DNA from: a virus
DNA length: 23,653 bases
Virus record (IMG/VR): IMGVR_UViG_3300021368_000879
Span: 1-23,653 of that record
Direction: 5' to 3' (one strand)
The notes below the pieces were generated by a model. That model saw nothing but the letters and a program-made list of their open reading frames with translations, was not told the origin of the DNA and did not search any database. The position numbers were made by a program, and so were the translations under genes. This document shows positions 10,475 through 20,933 of this stretch, piece after piece (position 1 is the stretch's first letter; each line of letters opens with the position of its first letter).

Positions 10475-11676
10475 TGGCAGACAAACCAATAGTAGAAGAT
10501 TTACAAAAGTTAGAAGTAACAGATGCTATAGTGCATCTATATGAATTAGAAGTTACTAAAGGTAACTTTTTCTACTTTACAAATCAAATAGAAAACGATT
10601 TATCAAATGTTCAAATGAGAGATTATGACTCAAATAATACGATTAGAACATATGTACCTATGCCTGTTCAAGCAAATGGCTTTGAGGCAAAAAATGATGG
10701 CGCTATACCAAGACCAACTATAGTTATGGCAAATGTTACAGATACTTTAAGTAATGCAGTAGGTAATTTTGACTATCAAACACTACTAGGACTAAAAGTA
10801 ATACGAAGAACTACATTAGCAAAGTATTTAGATGATGGTACAGGAAATAGTACTTCACCACCTGTAGAATTTCCTAGACAAGTGTTCTATGTAGATAGAA
10901 TAAAAACAAGAACAAAATTTTCTGTAGAACTTGAACTCGTATCACCATTCGATTTAGAGAATGTAAAGATACCAGCTAGAGTTGTTCATGCAAATAGATG
11001 TTCTTTTAAATATCAAGGAGCTTCTAGACATTTACCAGCATATAAAAGAGCTCAATCTGGCTGTGTTTGGGATGTTGAAAGTAAACCTGCAGGAAGTGAA
11101 AACCATGTTGCTTATGTAAATATGGATGATGAATACGTAATAGACTCAGGAGTTACTTTTACTACATACTCTACAGGTTCTGTTACTAAAGATGCTTACT
11201 ATAAAACAACACAAGTATTATCAAGAAATAACCCTGATGGAACATCAAGTAGTGTAACTGTAAATAATTATTGGCAGGCAACTACAAGTACCTCCAGTCC
11301 AGGAACACCTACTGATACAAATGTGAATTTTAATAGAATACGAGTATACTCTGATTATAATAGCTCACTTGATTATCATACATATAGCGATGATAGACAT
11401 AATAGTTATGTAAGATTTACAAATGCTACTAGTGGACATGAAAACAATGGCAAAGTAGAATTATGGAAAGCGGTAAAACCAAGTAAAGATGAAACTCCTA
11501 GCAATGAAAACGCTTTTTGGGAAAAAGGAGACTCTTGTAGTAAAACAACTATAGGATGTAAGATGAGATTTGCGGCAAATAAAATATCTGGAGATAACTC
11601 TACTAATTCTACTTCAATCAATAACAATAAAACTTATCCTTTTGGTGGATTCCCAGCAGCAAGGAGATTTAATTAA
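10474..11676 (+). CDS. Minor tail protein, gpL-like iron-sulfur tip protein with insertion
   Basis: This 400-residue protein corresponds to lambda gpL (232 residues), a tail-tip hub protein whose C-terminal domain is known to coordinate an iron-sulfur cluster. Residues 1-165 match the hub-like N-terminal domain (for example FPRQVFYVDRI and FSVELELVSPFD). Four cysteines fit the cluster ligands: Cys176 (ANRCSF), Cys197 (SGCVWD), Cys355 and Cys362 (DSCSKTTIGCKMRF, C-x6-C), followed by the family-typical FGGFPA ending. An insertion of ~157 residues separates Cys197 from Cys355. It is Ser/Thr/Asn/Tyr rich and contains aromatic patterns such as NNYWQATTST and LWKAVKPSKDETPSNENAFW, which recall small carbohydrate-binding modules. 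That last point is inference only. The stop overlaps the next start by one base. Confidence 0.9.
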   Translation: MADKPIVEDLQKLEVTDAIVHLYELEVTKGNFFYFTNQIENDLSNVQMRDYDSNNTIRTYVPMPVQANGFEAKNDGAIPRPTIVMANVTDTLSNAVGNFDYQTLLGLKVIRRTTLAKYLDDGTGNSTSPPVEFPRQVFYVDRIKTRTKFSVELELVSPFDLENVKIPARVVHANRCSFKYQGASRHLPAYKRAQSGCVWDVESKPAGSENHVAYVNMDDEYVIDSGVTFTTYSTGSVTKDAYYKTTQVLSRNNPDGTSSSVTVNNYWQATTSTSSPGTPTDTNVNFNRIRVYSDYNSSLDYHTYSDDRHNSYVRFTNATSGHENNGKVELWKAVKPSKDETPSNENAFWEKGDSCSKTTIGCKMRFAANKISGDNSTNSTSINNNKTYPFGGFPAARRFN

Positions 11677-11993
11677 TGTTTGAAGCAATATTCAATCATG
11701 CAGAACAAGAAGCCCCGCGTGAGTGTTGTGGACTTGTTGTACAAGATGGGAATGACAAACGATATATTCGCATGGAAAATATTTCTGAATTTGAAGATGA
11801 CTTTAAAATGGACGGATTAGCTTTCGCAACATATCAAGCGATTTCAAAAATATTATATGTAGTCCATAGTCACTACGAAGAAGATTGTCGCCCGAGTCAG
11901 CATGATATAGATAATTGCAATGCGTTAGGTATACCATATTTAATCGTATCATATCCAGACAAAGAACACTATATTTTGGAACCAAATACATGA
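11676..11993 (+). CDS. gpK-like JAMM/JAB metalloprotease, single domain
   Basis: This 105-residue protein is a JAB1/MPN/Mov34 (JAMM) metallo-isopeptidase-type protein, like the N-terminal half of lambda gpK. The zinc motif is complete: Glu16 in the PRECCGL segment, then His64-Ser65-His66, seven residues, Ser74 and Asp77 (HSHYEEDCRPSQHD). The NlpC/P60 cell-wall peptidase domain that follows in lambda gpK is absent, because the gene stops 28 residues after Asp77. All four Arg codons are CGN (CGT, CGA, CGC, CGC), whereas the adjacent gpL-like gene uses almost only AGA, hinting at a different history. A strong AAGGAGA ribosome binding site lies 8 bases before ATG. Its substrate is unknown; roles in tip maturation or peptidoglycan processing have been suggested for the family. 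Confidence 0.9.
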   Translation: MFEAIFNHAEQEAPRECCGLVVQDGNDKRYIRMENISEFEDDFKMDGLAFATYQAISKILYVVHSHYEEDCRPSQHDIDNCNALGIPYLIVSYPDKEHYILEPNT

Positions 11994-12750: not shown

Positions 12751-15700
12751 ATGAGTTACGCAAAAAAGACAATGCAAGAAGCAGAAAAAGCCAGGGAAGC
12801 AGCAACATCTGCAGCAGCGGCCGCTGATACTAGAACTGGACAATATCTAAATTTATCAGGAGAAACAAAAAATCAATCTGCTGTAGTATTTGATGCAATA
12901 TCAGAAGGTCCAATTGAAGGACTAAAGTATCAGGGTGCTAGTATAAAATTAAACGGAGATAGAGCATACTCTTTAGGGTCATATACAGCCAAAGGTATAT
13001 CATATTCTGCAAATGCTAGTTATAACTCTACAACTGGAGTAATTACAGACCATAACAGTCCTGGATTTATGAAAGATTCAAAAGTATCTCATGGTACTAG
13101 AAAAATGTTAATCCAAGGGGCAGCTAAAAATGGTACTGCAAATACAGTAGCAGGAAATACAACAATTATTGGAACAAATATAGTATTTGCAAGTAGTGAT
13201 GTAGCAGAGCCAAGTAATCTTACTCCAATGCTTAGAATAGAAGGTGCTGGATTAGATGGAGCAGATTTTTCTTCCCATATCGTAAGACACATTAACACTT
13301 CAGCAGTAGAAGTAGCATATGCCCCGAGTTCAAACACTACTAATGCCACAATGACATTAGACCTTATAAAAACAATCAGTTCAATAAATACAGCAAACAA
13401 TACTGTCACAGTAGAATCACCTTCTGGAAATGATGTAAATAATGGTAGAGTAGTAATGTCTACTCCAACAGATACTACAAATATAATACCTTCAGCAAAA
13501 TATGATAACTTCGGTTGGGCTTTTAGAAATGGACATGGCTCAGAGGAAGAAGGACAAACTTATATACCTACCCCAGCAGGAGTTGGTAGTGCAGGTATAT
13601 CTTATAAAGTACAAAGTGGAGAACTAAAACAAGTACCTAACACAGGATACCCAAGCCTAAGCGCCTTAGGACATACTATAGATGGCGCAACACCAACACC
13701 AACAGGAAGCCCTGTTATAGTAACTGCAAGTCAAATGGGAGTAGACAATCCAGGAGAAGTAGATACAGTAAAAGTAACTGTAAAATTCTCATCACTTATA
13801 GTTCAAAAAGAAAATGGTGCAAAAAGAGAAACAGGTTCAGAAAACAGAATAACATTTGAATATTCTAGAGATGGAGGGAATAATTACGAGTCTACTGTTG
13901 TTGTAGGTAGAGCTACTATATCTAGTAGCACCAACTTATACTCAAAAAGAGGTGGTTTTTATGAATATGGTAATGCAAATGGTGGTTTAGTAAAAGCTAG
14001 AAGTACTCAGCCTTTTAACTATATTTACGCATTTGATGTAACAAGATTTCAACCCTTTGATGATTACAGAATAAAAATAGAAAGAGTATCTCCAGACTCA
14101 GCGGTTAAAAAAGATAAATGGGAAACTTCTTCCGCATCTACAGTAGTAGCTGTAGAAAACTTAATAACAGATAAATTAATATATCCATATACAGCAATTG
14201 GAGGAATAATAGTAGACGCTGCAGAATTTTCAAGCGTTCCAGGAAGGTCTTACGAAATTTATGGACTTAAAGTAAAAGTACCTACTAACTATTTCCCTAT
14301 GAGCGAAAAAATAGGAGACACAGGGGAGAGAAGAAGCGCAGCGGCTTATACTAGAAATGTAACAACAGGTGTAGATACTTCTTCTTATGTAGACTGGGAC
14401 GGCAATTTTAGGGGAGATAAAAAAACATTCACAGACCCTACACATGTTAACTATGATACAGTGTACACAAGTAATCCTGTATGGATTTTTATGGACTTAG
14501 TAACTAATCCAAGATATGGACTAGGTAAATACATTGACCCAGAATTTGATTTTTCACAAATAGATAAATACTCTTTATATGCCCTTGCAAAATACTGCGA
14601 TGAGTTAGTACCAGATGGAAAAGGAGGTCTAGAGCCTCGATTTACTTGTAATGTTTACATAGCAAAACAAGATAACGCAATAAAAGTTTTAAAAGATTTC
14701 TCTTCAACTATCAGGTCTATGCTATTATGGCAGAATGGACAAGTAGGCCTAGGCGCAATGATTCAAAAAGGAGCTGTTTACACTTTTAGTAAATCAAATG
14801 TTGTAGATGGACAGTTTGCATACTCAGGGTCTTCAAATAGAACTAGATGTAATCAGGTAAAAGTAACTTGGATTGACCCTAAAAAGAATTATAAACAACA
14901 AGTAGAAGTTATAGAAGATACAGACCAAATTGCAAAAGATGGAAAAATTAAAACAAAAAGTGTAACTGCATTTGGCTGTACCTCAAAAGGACAAGCTATA
15001 AGATATGGTAAATTTCATTTACTATCAAGTAAGCTAGAGCAAGAAGTTGCTACATTTAGCACTGGATTAAATGGTGCAATGTTAAGACCTGGTGATGTCA
15101 TAAATATAGCAGACGGAGATAGAGAAGGAGTAGTTACAGCAGGTAGAGTTACAAGTACTAGTGCTTCTACTACTACTGTTATAAAAACAGATAGAGATTT
15201 AAGTGTTTATTTAAACCAAACTGCAGCTTATAAATTACATTTAATTTATCCAAAAGGAGGCGCATACTTAGCACAACCTACTGCAACAATAAATTCAACA
15301 ACATACTACCAAGGAGATTTAGTACTACTTGATGAAGCTGGAGGTGCAGTAGACACTGAAGCTAAAGCTGCAAATGTAAAAGACGATACAGGAAGTGTTG
15401 TAGTTTTAAACTGGAGTGAGCAAGGAAGAATAGAAACACAGTCAGTATCTTCTTACAATACTACTTCAGTAACAGTATCATCAGCATTTAGTGAAGCCCC
15501 TAATTCAGAGGTAATATTTAGTATATCAGGAGAGAACGAAGAAGGCTCAGACTTACAAGGCAGTTTAAAAACTTATATGATTACTTCTATCAAAGAAGAT
15601 AGTGATACGATGACTTATCAAATAAATGCAAGTGATTACTCACTAGATAAGTTTGATACTATAGATAGAGGATATGTTTTAGAGCCAGAAGAAGTATTTG

Positions 15701-18700
15701 AAGTGCCTGATTCTACTATAGATGTACCAGTACCAACAAATTTAGTAGTTACAATAGTTCCCGAATCAACAGATACCCCGGATGCGGAAGGCGTTGGTAA
15801 AACACAACCTTTTGATGTTTTAGCACAATGGCAACATCCTAAAAGTCAAAGAACAGATAGCACAACATTTACAGAAGGTAACGGTGCAATAGATGCAGAT
15901 GGAGAGTTAGATGATATATACGAACATTTATCTCATTATGAACTATCAACCAATTTAGGATTTAAGAGCATAGGACAACAAGGAAATCTTAAACTTAGAA
16001 GTATACCTGGAGATGAAAACAGCTACACAATAGAAAATGCAATGCCTGTCAAAATTGGACGAGTAAGAATAAGAACTGTAAATACAGCAGGGCATAAATC
16101 AGACTGGGTAGAAAGAAGAATAACAATTAGCGGTAAACACATACAAGTTACTGACCAAGGTGTAAATGGTGGTATGAATGGAAGTCTTATGAGAGGTGGT
16201 ATTCTAACCACTAGTATGTCTATAGATAGTTCTAATGGTACAGTTACTCTTGCCTCTAATGATTATGTGTTCCAGCCGCCTTCAGAAGTAGACCCAGTAA
16301 TAATATCAAACGGTGATTCAAGTACAACAACCCAAGCTTTTAACGGAATGTCAGACGGAGATACTGCATTCCTTATGATTGACTATGATACTGCTGATAA
16401 ATTAAGACCTTTGATAGTTTCTCAAGATACAACAGCAACAGATGCAGATGGCAATAAGTTAAACTTTAGATATTTCAAACGAGTAGGTCAGTCAGGAGAA
16501 GATTTTACTGAACTATCAGGTACAGTAACAATGGCTGCAGAATCTGTAGAATTAACTGGTAGCAGTACTACTTTTGAAACTGACTTTGAAGCAGGAGATG
16601 TTGTAATTATAGGAGAGGGTGCAGATAGACATATATCTACAGTAGGATTTGTAGATAGTAATACTGCTATGACAATTACTACCTCATCTACAAAATCACA
16701 TTCAGCAGAAAAAATATTCAAACAAGCACAAGATTATGATGGCGCTAGAGATAGTATAATAGCCCAAATAGATAGAACTGGAAGTACTTATACTTTAGCA
16801 CCTTTTACAAACAAACAAGTGGCAGAACAAGGAGAAATAGGTGCAAATGCTATCACATCAGTACAGATAGCTGCAAACGCAATAGGAAGTGTAGAAATAG
16901 CTACTAACTCTATAGGTGCTGTACAGATATCAGCTTGTTCTATAGACTCAAGTCATATTTCAGCAAACTCAATAGGAACAACAGCAATTTCAGCAAATGC
17001 TATTACTTCTTCAGAAATATCATCAAATAGTATTGATACTATAAATATTACAGCAAATGCAATTACATCTTCAGAGATATCAGCAAACGCTATAGGAACA
17101 GTAGCAATTGAAGCAAACTCTATTACGGCAGCTCAACTTACATCAGATGCAGTAGGAGCCTTTACAGTTACAGCAAACTCTATTACAGCAGTAGAACTAG
17201 CAGCTAACTCAGTAGAAGCAGTTGCTATAGCAGCCAACGCAATTACTAGCATAGAATTATCAGGAAACTCTGTAGATTCATCAGAAATAAAAGCAAACTC
17301 TGTAAATGGTACTATACTTGCAGGAAACTCTGTAAGTGGTACTCAGATTACTGCAGGAAGTGTAAATGGTATAATTATAGCAGACAACGCAGTAGTAGGT
17401 ACAAAGATAGCACAAAATGCTGTAGATACTGCACAACTACTAACAGGAGCAGTAGAAACTTTACAAATAGCCAACAATGCAATCAACAATGCTAAAATAG
17501 CTCTGAATTCTGTAGACACAGCAGAAATTATATCAGATGCAATCACAGGAGACTTGATAGCAGCAAATGCTGTAGATACTGCTCAAATAAAAGCAAACTC
17601 CATAACTTCAGCAGCAATTGTAGCAGGTGCTATTGGAAGTTCACAAATAGCGACAAATAGTATTGGCACAGCAAATATTATAGCAGGAACTATTGATTCC
17701 TCTCATATTTCTGCAAACAGTATTGAGAATACAGCAATTGTAGCAGGGGCTATAGGTACTAGTGAAATAGCTACAAATAGTATCGGAGTAGCAGCAATTA
17801 TAGCAGGTACTATCGATAACACCCACATGTCAGCAAACAGTATTACAGCAGCTCAAATAGTTGCAGGAGAGATAGATAGTACACACATTGGGGCGAATCA
17901 AATCACAGCAGCAGCTATACTCGCAGGAACAATAACAAATAACGAAATTCAAGCAAACACAATCAATAGTGTCGTTGTAGATTCTAGTGGAATCGAAGAA
18001 AATAATATTGCAGCAAATGCAATTGTTAATGCTAAAATTAAAACAGGTGCAGTTACAAATGCGAGTATTAATTCAAACGCAAGTATTGACTTTGCAAAAA
18101 TAAATGCATCAAACTCTATCACAAACGCAGACATTAGTGCAGGAACAAGTATAGACTTTGCAAAAATTAGTGTAGGTAATGGAGACATTAATAACGCTAT
18201 GATTAGTGCTGTGGGTACAGATAAACTAACAGGAACAATAAACAACGCACAAATAGCTGCGGGTTCTATTAATAATGCACAGATAGCCGCTGGTGGTATT
18301 ACGTTTGCAAAAATTACTGGTGTAAATGTAACTACGGCTCAAATAGCTGCAGACGCAATTACAAACGCAAAAATATCTTCTACAGATAACATGACAATCA
18401 CACTGACTGATGGTTCAGCAGGTGGTTGGAATGTAAACGCATCAGACTTTTCTAGTACAAACGCAAGTGGCGGTGGTAATGCAGCATACACAACAGCAGG
18501 TATAAAACTAGGTGCGGCAGGATATATTTCAGCAAAGAACTTCTACATTGACACAGCAGGTAATGCTAAGTTCAAAGGTGAATTAGCAGGTGCAACAGGA
18601 ACTTTCTCAGGAAGTATCACAGTTGGAGCATTTAACGCTGTATCAGGATCTTCCACTCTAGCGAGTTCAGTATCGGCCGCACAAAGTTCAGCTTCAGCAG

Positions 18701-20484
18701 CCGGGGTAGCAGCTAACTCAGCAGCTTCAGCAGCTTCAGCAGCACAAGGAACAGCTAACAATGCAAACACCGCAGCTGGAGTAGCTCAAAATTCAGCAAC
18801 AAGTGCTGGAGTTGCCGCAAACTCAGCAGCAGCAGCAGCTTCTACAGCAGATGGAAAAGCAGTAACAGCACAAGGAACAGCTGCTAATGCAGCTACAGCA
18901 GCTTCAGCAGCTCAATCTACAGCAGATTCAAAAGTCACTCATGCCGCAGTAAACTCATCCTCTACAATAGTAGGTGGTGGAATAGGTGGATGGGGTATAA
19001 CTACCTATCACTTAGGCGGCGGTGCACAGGCAAATCCTTCGACTAGAGACTTTAGTATAGGTACATCAACTTCAGGTAATGCAACTTTCTTATCGAATGG
19101 TGGTATAGTAATGGGGTCAGACGGTTTTATATCTTCAAATACCTTCACCATTGATACAGCAGGTAATGCTAAATTTAAAGGTACACTAGAAGGAGATGAC
19201 GTAACTGTAAATGGAACACTTGTATTACCATCAGAGGGTGCTAATGTAAGTGGAGTTGTTATTGGTGCATGGCAAACAAACACTATGGACAATAGATTTG
19301 TAACAGAAGTAGGAAGTGGCCCAGGTTTCTATCAAGGTTTTGTAAGAGTCACAGGTGGAACACACTATGTAAAAAGTGTAAGTATTCAGATTAGAACAGG
19401 TACTTCTACTGGACTTGAAGGAAATCTAATATATGAAACTCCACAACTTCATGAGTATACAGCAGGAAATTTAAAAGATAATAATGCTACAAGATTATAC
19501 ACTAATACCTCACCAGTAGCTTCAGGTAATATGCCAATAGCATTTACTTACACAGGCTCAGGTAGTGTATCAGTATTTGTTAGAGCACAGGCAGATACCG
19601 GACCTGACACATTAGGTATAGGTGAAGCTAGATTTATTAAGTTCGGTACAACAGACCCAGTATATAGTTTTGCTAACCAATCAGGTGTAGCATTAAATAC
19701 AGCATTTTATTCAAATACACAAGTTGTTGGAGGATTTGCAGGAACTAAAACTGTAAATATATCTAACACTTCATTTACACGATTTAAGATTGATAATGGA
19801 AGTTTTGGCACAGCAAACTCTCAAATTGCAAACGGAAGTTATATCAATGTAGAGATAACATCATCAGGTGTTAATTTAACTCAAAGGTCTAGTATTGTAT
19901 CTATAGGAGAGTCTTCAGAGGTATTTTCAATAACAACTGGTGGCACAACTGGTGGCGGCGGAGACCCCGGAGACGGACCTGGCGGCGGAGGTTGTTTCGT
20001 ACAAGGAACTCCTGTAGTTATGGCTGATGGAACTACTAAAGCAATCGAAGATGTAAATGTTGGAGAAAGTGTAAAATCATTTAGACATTCAAGTTTCTCA
20101 ACAGGTGAAAATGCTTGGAAAACTTGGTCAAGTTCAGAAATAGGAAGTGGAAGTTTTGGAACTTCAAATGTCGTTGCACTAACAGACCCTCACGCACATA
20201 CAAATTATTATTGGATTAATTACAATCTAAAAGTTACTAACGAACATCCTATGTTAGCCTTTAAAGATGGAGTATTTAAATTTGTAAAAGTAGAAGACTT
20301 AGCAGAAGGAGATTATCTAATCAGAGAAAACGGCACTAGAGAAGAAATATTTGCTATACCGCATATAACAACAAGTTGTATTACACATAACATGGATGTA
20401 GAAGATGATGATACTTATGTTGTAAGAGGTGGAAATGGTACTGGGTATATAGCACATAACGTACAACAGGAGATAAAAGTTTAA
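12751..20484 (+). CDS. gpJ-like central tail fibre / host-specificity protein, giant, with C-terminal Hint domain
   Basis: This 2577-residue protein is the central tip fibre that would recognise the host receptor; lambda gpJ has 1132 residues. Order of parts: an N-terminal helix; AISEGPIEGL (~49-58), a gpJ hallmark; a hub and tail-protein core to ~990, including WIFMDLVTNPRYGLG (~575); a fibronectin-III-like region (~994-1125); a linker domain to ~1364; 40 decapeptide repeats (1365-1764) and a looser continuation to ~1876; a 'GYISAKNFYIDTAGNAKFKG' module; an Ala-rich coiled coil (~1971-2061); a second copy of the module (to ~2150); a beta-rich domain (~2150-2390); a Gly-rich linker; and a Hint domain (2415-2570). 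The start has a GAGGAA ribosome binding site. The gpJ core is certain by pattern; the receptor-binding part is inferred to be C-terminal. Confidence 0.95.
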   Translation: MSYAKKTMQEAEKAREAATSAAAAADTRTGQYLNLSGETKNQSAVVFDAISEGPIEGLKYQGASIKLNGDRAYSLGSYTAKGISYSANASYNSTTGVITDHNSPGFMKDSKVSHGTRKMLIQGAAKNGTANTVAGNTTIIGTNIVFASSDVAEPSNLTPMLRIEGAGLDGADFSSHIVRHINTSAVEVAYAPSSNTTNATMTLDLIKTISSINTANNTVTVESPSGNDVNNGRVVMSTPTDTTNIIPSAKYDNFGWAFRNGHGSEEEGQTYIPTPAGVGSAGISYKVQSGELKQVPNTGYPSLSALGHTIDGATPTPTGSPVIVTASQMGVDNPGEVDTVKVTVKFSSLIVQKENGAKRETGSENRITFEYSRDGGNNYESTVVVGRATISSSTNLYSKRGGFYEYGNANGGLVKARSTQPFNYIYAFDVTRFQPFDDYRIKIERVSPDSAVKKDKWETSSASTVVAVENLITDKLIYPYTAIGGIIVDAAEFSSVPGRSYEIYGLKVKVPTNYFPMSEKIGDTGERRSAAAYTRNVTTGVDTSSYVDWDGNFRGDKKTFTDPTHVNYDTVYTSNPVWIFMDLVTNPRYGLGKYIDPEFDFSQIDKYSLYALAKYCDELVPDGKGGLEPRFTCNVYIAKQDNAIKVLKDFSSTIRSMLLWQNGQVGLGAMIQKGAVYTFSKSNVVDGQFAYSGSSNRTRCNQVKVTWIDPKKNYKQQVEVIEDTDQIAKDGKIKTKSVTAFGCTSKGQAIRYGKFHLLSSKLEQEVATFSTGLNGAMLRPGDVINIADGDREGVVTAGRVTSTSASTTTVIKTDRDLSVYLNQTAAYKLHLIYPKGGAYLAQPTATINSTTYYQGDLVLLDEAGGAVDTEAKAANVKDDTGSVVVLNWSEQGRIETQSVSSYNTTSVTVSSAFSEAPNSEVIFSISGENEEGSDLQGSLKTYMITSIKEDSDTMTYQINASDYSLDKFDTIDRGYVLEPEEVFEVPDSTIDVPVPTNLVVTIVPESTDTPDAEGVGKTQPFDVLAQWQHPKSQRTDSTTFTEGNGAIDADGELDDIYEHLSHYELSTNLGFKSIGQQGNLKLRSIPGDENSYTIENAMPVKIGRVRIRTVNTAGHKSDWVERRITISGKHIQVTDQGVNGGMNGSLMRGGILTTSMSIDSSNGTVTLASNDYVFQPPSEVDPVIISNGDSSTTTQAFNGMSDGDTAFLMIDYDTADKLRPLIVSQDTTATDADGNKLNFRYFKRVGQSGEDFTELSGTVTMAAESVELTGSSTTFETDFEAGDVVIIGEGADRHISTVGFVDSNTAMTITTSSTKSHSAEKIFKQAQDYDGARDSIIAQIDRTGSTYTLAPFTNKQVAEQGEIGANAITSVQIAANAIGSVEIATNSIGAVQISACSIDSSHISANSIGTTAISANAITSSEISSNSIDTINITANAITSSEISANAIGTVAIEANSITAAQLTSDAVGAFTVTANSITAVELAANSVEAVAIAANAITSIELSGNSVDSSEIKANSVNGTILAGNSVSGTQITAGSVNGIIIADNAVVGTKIAQNAVDTAQLLTGAVETLQIANNAINNAKIALNSVDTAEIISDAITGDLIAANAVDTAQIKANSITSAAIVAGAIGSSQIATNSIGTANIIAGTIDSSHISANSIENTAIVAGAIGTSEIATNSIGVAAIIAGTIDNTHMSANSITAAQIVAGEIDSTHIGANQITAAAILAGTITNNEIQANTINSVVVDSSGIEENNIAANAIVNAKIKTGAVTNASINSNASIDFAKINASNSITNADISAGTSIDFAKISVGNGDINNAMISAVGTDKLTGTINNAQIAAGSINNAQIAAGGITFAKITGVNVTTAQIAADAITNAKISSTDNMTITLTDGSAGGWNVNASDFSSTNASGGGNAAYTTAGIKLGAAGYISAKNFYIDTAGNAKFKGELAGATGTFSGSITVGAFNAVSGSSTLASSVSAAQSSASAAGVAANSAASAASAAQGTANNANTAAGVAQNSATSAGVAANSAAAAASTADGKAVTAQGTAANAATAASAAQSTADSKVTHAAVNSSSTIVGGGIGGWGITTYHLGGGAQANPSTRDFSIGTSTSGNATFLSNGGIVMGSDGFISSNTFTIDTAGNAKFKGTLEGDDVTVNGTLVLPSEGANVSGVVIGAWQTNTMDNRFVTEVGSGPGFYQGFVRVTGGTHYVKSVSIQIRTGTSTGLEGNLIYETPQLHEYTAGNLKDNNATRLYTNTSPVASGNMPIAFTYTGSGSVSVFVRAQADTGPDTLGIGEARFIKFGTTDPVYSFANQSGVALNTAFYSNTQVVGGFAGTKTVNISNTSFTRFKIDNGSFGTANSQIANGSYINVEITSSGVNLTQRSSIVSIGESSEVFSITTGGTTGGGGDPGDGPGGGGCFVQGTPVVMADGTTKAIEDVNVGESVKSFRHSSFSTGENAWKTWSSSEIGSGSFGTSNVVALTDPHAHTNYYWINYNLKVTNEHPMLAFKDGVFKFVKVEDLAEGDYLIRENGTREEIFAIPHITTSCITHNMDVEDDDTYVVRGGNGTGYIAHNVQQEIKV
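16843..18042 (+). repeat. Forty in-frame 30-bp (decapeptide) repeats in the J fibre
   Basis: The coding sequence here translates into exactly 40 consecutive ten-residue units without an insertion or deletion. The consensus is about [AGT]-N-[AS]-[IV]-x-[STG]-x-x-[IL]-[AS]; examples are ANAITSVQIA, ANSIGTTAIS and AGTIDSSHIS. Ile/Val/Leu at positions 4 and 9 give a five-residue hydrophobic rhythm, suggesting a beta-helical or trimeric beta-spiral shaft. DNA copies are diverged, so this is an old array. A looser continuation (TGTINNAQIA, AGSINNAQIA) runs to 18378. Confidence 0.93.
18541..18579 (+). repeat. Direct repeat, copy 1 (fibre module IDTAGNAKFKG)
   Basis: This in-frame 39-bp segment encodes FYIDTAGNAKFKG. 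It is the most conserved part of a duplicated module in the J fibre, and its copy lies 603 bp downstream at nearly identical DNA sequence. Confidence 0.85.
18661..18933 (+). repeat. Ala/Ser-rich coiled-coil repeat region in the J fibre
   Basis: About 90 residues are mostly Ala, Ser, Thr, Gln and Asn, with recurring AANSAA, AAQGTA and ADGKAV units, and almost no aromatic or bulky residue. Such segments form trimeric Ala-rich coiled coils in phage tail fibres. The region lies between the two copies of the IDTAGNAKFKG module. Confidence 0.8.
19144..19182 (+). repeat. Direct repeat, copy 2 (fibre module IDTAGNAKFKG)
   Basis: This in-frame 39-bp segment encodes FTIDTAGNAKFKG and differs from copy 1 at a few bases, mostly synonymous. 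The flanks also correspond: both modules have a GGW segment, then a G-[FY]-I-S strand before the repeat and a beta-rich continuation after it. Confidence 0.85.
19993..20481 (+). other. Hint (hedgehog/intein) autoprocessing domain at the C-terminus of J
   Basis: Domain-level annotation of J residues 2415-2577. The N-terminal nucleophile is Cys2415 in GGGGCFVQGTPVVMADG (intein block A), preceded by a Gly/Pro-rich linker. Block B is seen as Thr2496-Asn-Glu-His2499-Pro in NLKVTNEHPML. Block F corresponds to HNMDVEDDDTYVV, and block G to GYIAHN with His2569-Asn2570. The expected catalytic residues are all present, at mini-intein size (156 residues). Only seven residues (VQQEIKV) follow, starting with Val instead of Cys, Ser or Thr, so normal protein splicing is not expected. 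N-terminal thioester cleavage and Asn-dependent release of the short tail are possible. This matches bacterial-intein-like or hedgehog-like Hint domains. Confidence 0.88.
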
Positions 20485-20933
20485 TGAATCATATAATACA
20501 AACAGGAACAGATAGCGAAGGAAACGCAATAACAACAACACTAGATGTGCAGTTTACTTTTACTTATGAATTTGTAGGTCATGAAACACAAAATTTTGTG
20601 AATAATCAAGAGATGCCTAGAATAAGAGAAAACGATATGGTAAAAACTGTAAGAGTAAAAGTAACAGGAACTGATGGAACATCAGCAAACGCTTCACATT
20701 TAGTCGAAGGACAAACAGACCAGGTATACTCAGAAACACTTGCAGTACCTTTGCCTTGGAGGTCAAAAGCAAATGGTCAGCTTTCCGGATTTATAACTCC
20801 TTATGAAAATGTAACTGAAACTATGATGTTAAATTGGGCTAAAAGCATACTGTTAGAACAAGGTCAAGTCGATGCACTAAATATAAATTTTGCTACTGCT
20901 CTATATGGGCATAGATATCATGTTCCCCAGTAA
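20484..20933 (+). CDS. Unassigned protein encoded directly after J
   Basis: I do not recognise this 149-residue protein. Its start overlaps the stop of J by one base, and a CAGGAGAT ribosome binding site lies about 9 bases upstream, so it is the last gene of the J transcript unit. It begins with a beta-rich segment (TTTLDVQFTFTYEFVGHETQ), has a middle with VKTVRVKVTGTDGTSANASH, and ends in a helix (MMLNWAKSILLEQGQVDALN) before an aromatic end. There is no signal peptide, membrane segment or enzyme motif. Position suggests a small structural protein or a chaperone for J or the fibres. The 84 bases after it hold no convincing terminator but carry a promoter. Confidence 0.8.
   Translation: MNHIIQTGTDSEGNAITTTLDVQFTFTYEFVGHETQNFVNNQEMPRIRENDMVKTVRVKVTGTDGTSANASHLVEGQTDQVYSETLAVPLPWRSKANGQLSGFITPYENVTETMMLNWAKSILLEQGQVDALNINFATALYGHRYHVPQ

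Follow-up and report, generated by a model that had tools for sequence, protein, structure and literature searches.

The virus record IMGVR_UViG_3300021368_000879, a single-contig record from a marine phage that was analysed over its whole length of 23,653 nucleotides (the window), carries a gene for a central tail fibre J whose 2577-residue precursor ends in a complete Hint domain. Judging from the sequences and a structure model, self-processing of the protein is probably how these phages complete their fibre tips. Among the readings considered here we lean, with some reserve, towards one in which the J Hint resembles the type A bacterial intein-like (BIL) domains and would remove itself from the fibre tip, the tip being trimmed mainly through water. 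No account of a phage fibre ending in a Hint was found in the literature, a search that covered open-licence papers and does not prove that none exists. The elements on which the argument depends are the following, in window coordinates:

12751-20484, + strand: central tail fibre J, Hint-bearing precursor of 2577 residues (PHROG 31 match, E 5e-125; lambda_TipJ region match)
19933-19992, + strand: Gly/Pro-rich linker, residues 2395-2414, with GGGG at its end (sequence, relatives compared)
19993-20460, + strand: Hint domain, residues 2415-2570 (Cys1 to Asn156), 156 residues (profiles, alignments and structure model)
19993-19995, + strand: Cys2415, the position 1 nucleophile, which is Ser in the relatives L030, L031, L078 and L081 (alignment)
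20236-20247, + strand: block B, Thr2496-x-x-His2499, invariant, with Thr2496 at 20236-20238 and His2499 at 20245-20247 (alignment)
20455-20460, + strand: block G, His2569-Asn2570, invariant (alignment)
20461-20481, + strand: C-terminal tail VQQEIKV (V2571-V2577), followed by a TAA stop codon at 20482-20484 (sequence)

The Pfam family PT-HINT (PF07591) covers most of the domain when compared with the isolated J C-terminus (28.1 bits, cut-off 27.7, E 2.6e-6); against the whole J protein it scores 21 bits, under the cut-off. The Pfam family Hom_end_hint matches block A in the isolated C-terminus. A profile built from J-type Hints only has the BIL2 domain of BUBL1 as its top PDB sequence (E 1.4e-5), and a wider profile, with other phage Hints added, picks up BIL2 at E 2.3e-21 and the C. 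thermocellum BIL at E 8.2e-21, with inteins next. Profile-profile comparison with 14 Hints not belonging to the J family (12 taken from viral contigs, two from bacterial metagenome-assembled genomes) gave a probability of 99.8%. The AlphaFold2 model of the domain was poor when close relatives alone were supplied (predicted local distance difference test (pLDDT) 58.5), and reached a pLDDT of 88.2 and a predicted template modelling score of 0.85 once distant phage Hints were added, in an alignment of 35 diverse sequences. The solved structure nearest to this model is BIL2 of Tetrahymena BUBL1 (PDB 6y75; Foldseek E 2.5e-9, Z score 19.3, root mean squared deviation 1.8, 139 aligned residues), followed by the C. 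thermocellum BIL (2lwy, Z 18.5) and then by inteins and Hedgehog; 85 PDB chains reach a Z score of at least 5, and the best ones listed are all BIL, intein or Hedgehog domains. Judged by the aligned ranges and not by coordinates, Cys1 of the model falls on C1 of BIL2 and Asn156 on N143. Because the Pfam, profile, profile-profile and structure-model matches agree, the Hint match is not due to chance. By the model, the J C-terminus has the Hint fold, and it carries the Cys or Ser at position 1 and the TxxH motif of the Hint (Hedgehog/intein) superfamily; the autocatalytic acyl shift that also marks this superfamily is a prediction for J. The first-pass annotation of this DNA had placed a complete Hint with all its catalytic positions at the extreme C-terminus of J and had proposed a profile search and a structure prediction as checks; its residue numbers, the 156-residue span, the Gly/Pro linker and the seven-residue tail were all correct, and both checks bear it out.

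BIL2 of BUBL1 from Tetrahymena thermophila (PDB 6y75 and 6tmm) is the best match by fold and by profile alike, and has Cys1, TxxH, HN and the Gly before Cys1 in common with the J Hint. It sits between two ubiquitin-like domains in a ciliate protein, whereas the J Hint has a phage fibre before it and seven residues after it; moreover, BIL2 forms lysine isopeptides (PMC8616854), which for the J Hint would be a hypothetical product. The type A BILs (C. thermocellum, 2lwy) have the same fold, size and terminal His-Asn, and share with the domain of the window the lack of Cys, Ser or Thr at +1, but they sit in variable regions inside bacterial proteins and are flanked by protein on either side, while the J Hint closes a phage structural protein. 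Owing to this difference in placement, we call the J Hint BIL-like rather than a type A BIL. Nor is the +1 criterion of type A BILs universal in the wider group, in which HN is followed by Val in the window, by V, I, A, N or K in close relatives, by Ser in L201 and by Thr in gp111 of an Erwinia phage described below. Inteins have a C-extein that completes the host protein and a +1 nucleophile; the J Hint has neither, and carries a variable tail instead. The Hog domain of Hedgehog (PDB 1at0) shows the same Hint fold (Z 16.6), the same Gly-Cys-Phe junction and the same position as a C-terminal module. Hedgehog possesses a sterol-recognition region but lacks the terminal His-Asn; in the J Hint it is the other way round. 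Downstream of the J Hint only seven residues remain and no sterol-recognition or other acceptor-binding region was found, which leaves the sugar or lipid acceptor suggested in the first-pass annotation unsupported. C-terminal modules of another kind, the S74 chaperones of phage fibres, are thought to leave the fibre by autoproteolysis (PMC7824862); they differ from the J Hint in fold and in their Ser-Lys chemistry, and no Pfam match to Peptidase_S74 was found in J. No described case of fibre autoprocessing by Hint chemistry was found in the open-licence literature; a portable terminal Hint, under selection on receptor-binding fibres of several phage lineages, would be a second form of autoprocessing for fibre tips.

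Relatives of the fibre were collected from IMG/VR with three queries, the Hint, the downstream gene and the distal fibre domain, which recovered about 40 metagenomic phage contigs. All contigs of sufficient reach have the Hint at the very end of J and a DUF7936 gene after it, and no intact Hint-less J allele was found among these contigs. Those that have the distal domain and no Hint (L176, L193, L204, L205 and L208) break off at the linker or ahead of it; L210, considered as a Hint-less allele, turned out to be a weak match in a different protein. The Hint is present even in L201-L203, L206 and L209, where the distal domain is just 51-53% identical and the Hint 31-34% identical, and each of eight long records (28-105 kilobases) has one Hint match. 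Pretoxin HINT domains perform autoproteolytic release near the C-terminus of long fibrous polymorphic toxins (PMC3482391), and their family, PT-HINT, gives the longest Pfam match to the J Hint; in addition, plasmid-borne relatives are mostly Hints of Streptomyces proteins that carry polymorphic toxin or RHS annotations. Both observations would fit a remnant, either of a selfish intein or of a pretoxin Hint that has lost its toxin. We consider such an origin very improbable: the protein ends after the seven-residue tail with no toxin domain downstream of the Hint, neither an endonuclease nor a C-extein is present, the same site is occupied in every relative without an intact empty allele, the domain is under purifying selection, and the short-tailed terminal form recurs on unrelated fibres.

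Across 20 J-type Hints the median ratio of nonsynonymous to synonymous substitution rates is 0.21, and it is 0.23 in the fibre stretch upstream. TxxH and HN are invariant in this set; the codons for the Thr, the block-B His and the Asn show synonymous changes. Of the 20 domains, 17 have Cys (TGT or TGC) at position 1 and three have Ser (AGT). The Ser looks derived, since all relatives outside the Ser1 clade have Cys; in class 1 inteins, too, Ser is the known alternative to Cys at this position (PMC7664689). When 35 phage and bacterial Hints are aligned, eight columns are invariant, including the block-B Thr and His and the HN pair. We take this conservation (invariant TxxH and HN, Cys or Ser at position 1, purifying selection) as the best evidence for a chemistry in use. 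It also makes it quite unlikely that the Hint is retained on the fibre, reacting little or not at all, and serves there as a folded terminal cap or an aid to assembly. A module present on every J copy could act in that way through its fold alone, but the catalytic residues are its best-kept part, down to a nucleophile-for-nucleophile change, and capping would not need Cys1, TxxH and HN together. A second cysteine, Cys2543 in block F (window 20377-20379), is found in 18 of the 20 J-type Hints and is Ala in two Ser1 members. Redox control through this residue was considered and rejected, as it is kept in the Ser1 member L078 and lost in L030 and L031, and so does not track Cys1.

Hint domains are widely annotated in phage proteins, and the remark of the first-pass annotation that they occur in phage structural proteins holds: terminal Hints end unrelated fibre proteins of isolated phages. 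The protein gp111 of Erwinia phage pEa_SNUABM_3 (YP_010301224.1, annotated as a virion structural protein) contains collagen repeats and ends in VLVHN-TDIVAKAEKN. In phage NCTB, BN7874_132 (gp132), which has a Calx-beta match, reads GGGGGG-C...VLVHN-APVDQKH, and BN7874_136 (gp136), with collagen repeats, reads GGGG-C...CIHN-AVMVAKK. These three Hints are 21-30% identical to that of the window and share with J the terminal position, a short Lys-bearing tail and a W-rich insertion, whereas their fibre bodies (collagen-like, Calx-beta) are unrelated to that of J. The insertion lies ahead of block B (A-[WY]-K-T-W-[ST] in J; WEDWTT, WKDWKA and FRQWSS in the Erwinia and NCTB Hints) and is absent from the internal phage Hints in the alignment, from which we infer that the J, Erwinia and NCTB terminal Hints form one subfamily, a portable module that would have moved between unrelated fibre bodies. 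Since isolated phages carry terminal Hints, their function is testable now. Right after BN7874_136 lies BN7874_135 (L149:701-1159, - strand), a free-standing Hint-like protein that lacks the usual Cys1 start and may be a split or decayed Hint copy.

In the self-removal scheme towards which we lean, the last 163 residues of the J precursor would be a removable processing module. After folding of the fibre, Cys2415 (Ser in one clade) would attack the carbonyl of Gly2414 to form a (thio)ester, assisted by Thr2496 and His2499; Asn2570 would cyclise with the help of His2569, cutting off the seven-residue tail; and mainly water would resolve the acyl bond, releasing the Hint and leaving a mature fibre with a flexible Gly-rich arm that ends at Gly2414. 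The acyl shift from Gly2414 to Cys2415 is predicted from the conserved residues and the fold, and the Asn2570 cyclisation from the HN pair; the occurrence and order of the reactions, water as the main acceptor and a trimmed tip as the product are likewise predictions. Water is preferred here since cleavage is the dominant outcome in type A BILs (PMC4031507). The flexible and variable linker ahead of Cys1 fits a cut site: TTGGTTGGGGDPGDGPGGGG directly precedes C2415, and in the relatives the linker is poly-Gly or, in the Ser1 clade, acidic (EEEA). The terminal position in about 40 contigs and the recurrence on unrelated fibres also support self-processing. What weighs against this scheme is that the invariant His-Asn and the conserved Lys of the tail are not needed for plain N-terminal release. 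Hedgehog has no terminal His-Asn, a pair that N-terminal cleavage alone does not require. The invariance of His-Asn points to a use of the C-terminal end too, and the HN pair and the Lys would favour transfer to an amine more than plain release.

In such a transfer, which we hold to be possible but doubtful, the Gly2414 (thio)ester would be passed to an amine instead of being lost to water, and the tip would gain an isopeptide- or peptide-linked addition without adenosine triphosphate (ATP). The simplest acceptors would be Lys2576 or the freed alpha-amine of the tail, in the same or a neighbouring chain, and, failing these, a lysine on a different tail-tip protein. BIL2, whose solved structure is the nearest, is reported to make lysine isopeptides (PMC8616854), and type A BILs without a +1 nucleophile can still ligate their flanks, the freed amine attacking the thioester (PMC4031507); the first-pass statement that splicing is not expected because Val follows Asn is therefore too strong. 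The His-Asn is invariant though merely 4-8 residues of variable sequence follow it in the J family (4-10 across tails overall). Lys2576 (20476-20478) is the conserved penultimate residue of J: Lys occurs in 22/22 distinct J tails, penultimate in 20 of them and at +1 in two tails of the Ser1 clade, against a penultimate Lys in 12% (51/435) of other open reading frames of the fetched contigs, or 16% of those with an ATG near the stop, a set that is partly redundant and has J genes included. The three NCTB and Erwinia tails likewise bear a Lys near the end. The tail Lys may, however, stem from translation termination or protein stability, or in part from the likely ribosome-binding site (AGGAG) for the downstream gene that the tail DNA includes. 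A pure ribosome-binding-site effect is made less likely by L209, in which the stop is TAG, the next ATG is eight bases on and the Lys is still penultimate. The distance between Lys and HN varies (5-7, or 1), the sequences are related, so that the Lys counts are not independent, and cleavage prevails in the known type A BILs (PMC4031507).

A Hint that takes the Lys of its own tail or of a neighbouring tail-tip chain as acceptor would form isopeptides without ATP on receptor-binding fibre tips, a virion analogue of BUBL spread as a cassette between unrelated fibres; this fuller proposal is rather unlikely. If the glycine does pass to an amine, virions would contain covalent isopeptides whose formation needs neither ATP nor separate enzymes, and such chemistry would also be useful for bioconjugation. 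Covalent adsorption, in which virions would keep the activated Gly2414 and pass it to a nucleophile of the host surface, is suggested by the position at the fibre tip and lies within Hint chemistry, which includes acyl transfer (PMC4031507, PMC8616854). It would demand a thioester stable enough to persist in virions, the Hint is not followed by an acceptor-binding region, and terminal Hints are also found on proteins not known as receptor binders; we give it hardly any credence.

The fibre gene itself is assigned as a lambda-type central tail fibre J by its core and its gene neighbourhood. PHROG 31, "central tail fiber J", matches the mid-part of the 2577-residue protein, a lambda_TipJ region matches at E 2e-64, under the cut-off of that profile, and a Pfam Phage-tail_3 match is also present; upstream, genes for minor tail protein L, a JAB-domain K and tail assembly protein I give the order L-K-I-J. 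The best matches of J in cultured phages are 43-47% identical across a core stretch of 213 residues. Two further features flank the Hint region, neither of which gave a match when searched in cultured phages:

19132-19932, + strand: distal fibre domain, residues 2128-2394, ahead of the linker, kept in all relatives
20484-20933, + strand: DUF7936 gene, 149 residues, overlapping the J stop codon and downstream of J-Hint in every relative

DUF7936 was considered as a dedicated Hint partner and rejected, since the genes scanned beside the Erwinia and NCTB Hints gave matches to other families (collagen-like tail fibre PHROGs); from this comparison it appears not to be a general Hint partner, though it always lies downstream of J. 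The gene at the K position (window 11676-11993) encodes a 105-residue JAB domain alone, in an open reading frame without an NlpC/P60 part. The fibre shaft (window about 16900-18400, J residues about 1390-1880) contains a long stretch of NSI-xxxx-I-xA repeats that differs among relatives.

Hints were also seen elsewhere among the tail-tip genes. In L142-L145 (e.g. L143:5686-6798), a Hint ending in HN-K lies within tail assembly protein I, between its N- and C-terminal parts, two separate stretches that match PHROG 32 and flank the Hint; the product of the adjacent K gene begins with a JAB-like stretch. If the N-terminus of these I proteins is ubiquitin-like, as we take the N-terminal domain of lambda I to be, this order would resemble the ubiquitin-like-BIL order of BUBL in ciliates. 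A third placement is found in L130 (L130:5977-8457), with a Hint at the N-terminus of a J-like tail protein. Many other phage proteins contain internal Hints ending in YLVHN-K, some of them in tandem: L163-L166 (L163:3135-5408) have three in direct tandem (HN-AP-C..., HN-R-C...), the last of which ends in VHN-K and a stop. In L088, L089 and L112-L119 a complete Hint (YLVHN-K) is followed by a Gly-rich linker and a second GCFxxGT start, whose domain has no terminal His-Asn. Finally, the phage proteins of L082-L085, L087, L090-L092 and L095 end in a Hint-like start (GCFVEGTPIQMADG) with a domain that, as in Hedgehog, has no terminal His-Asn.

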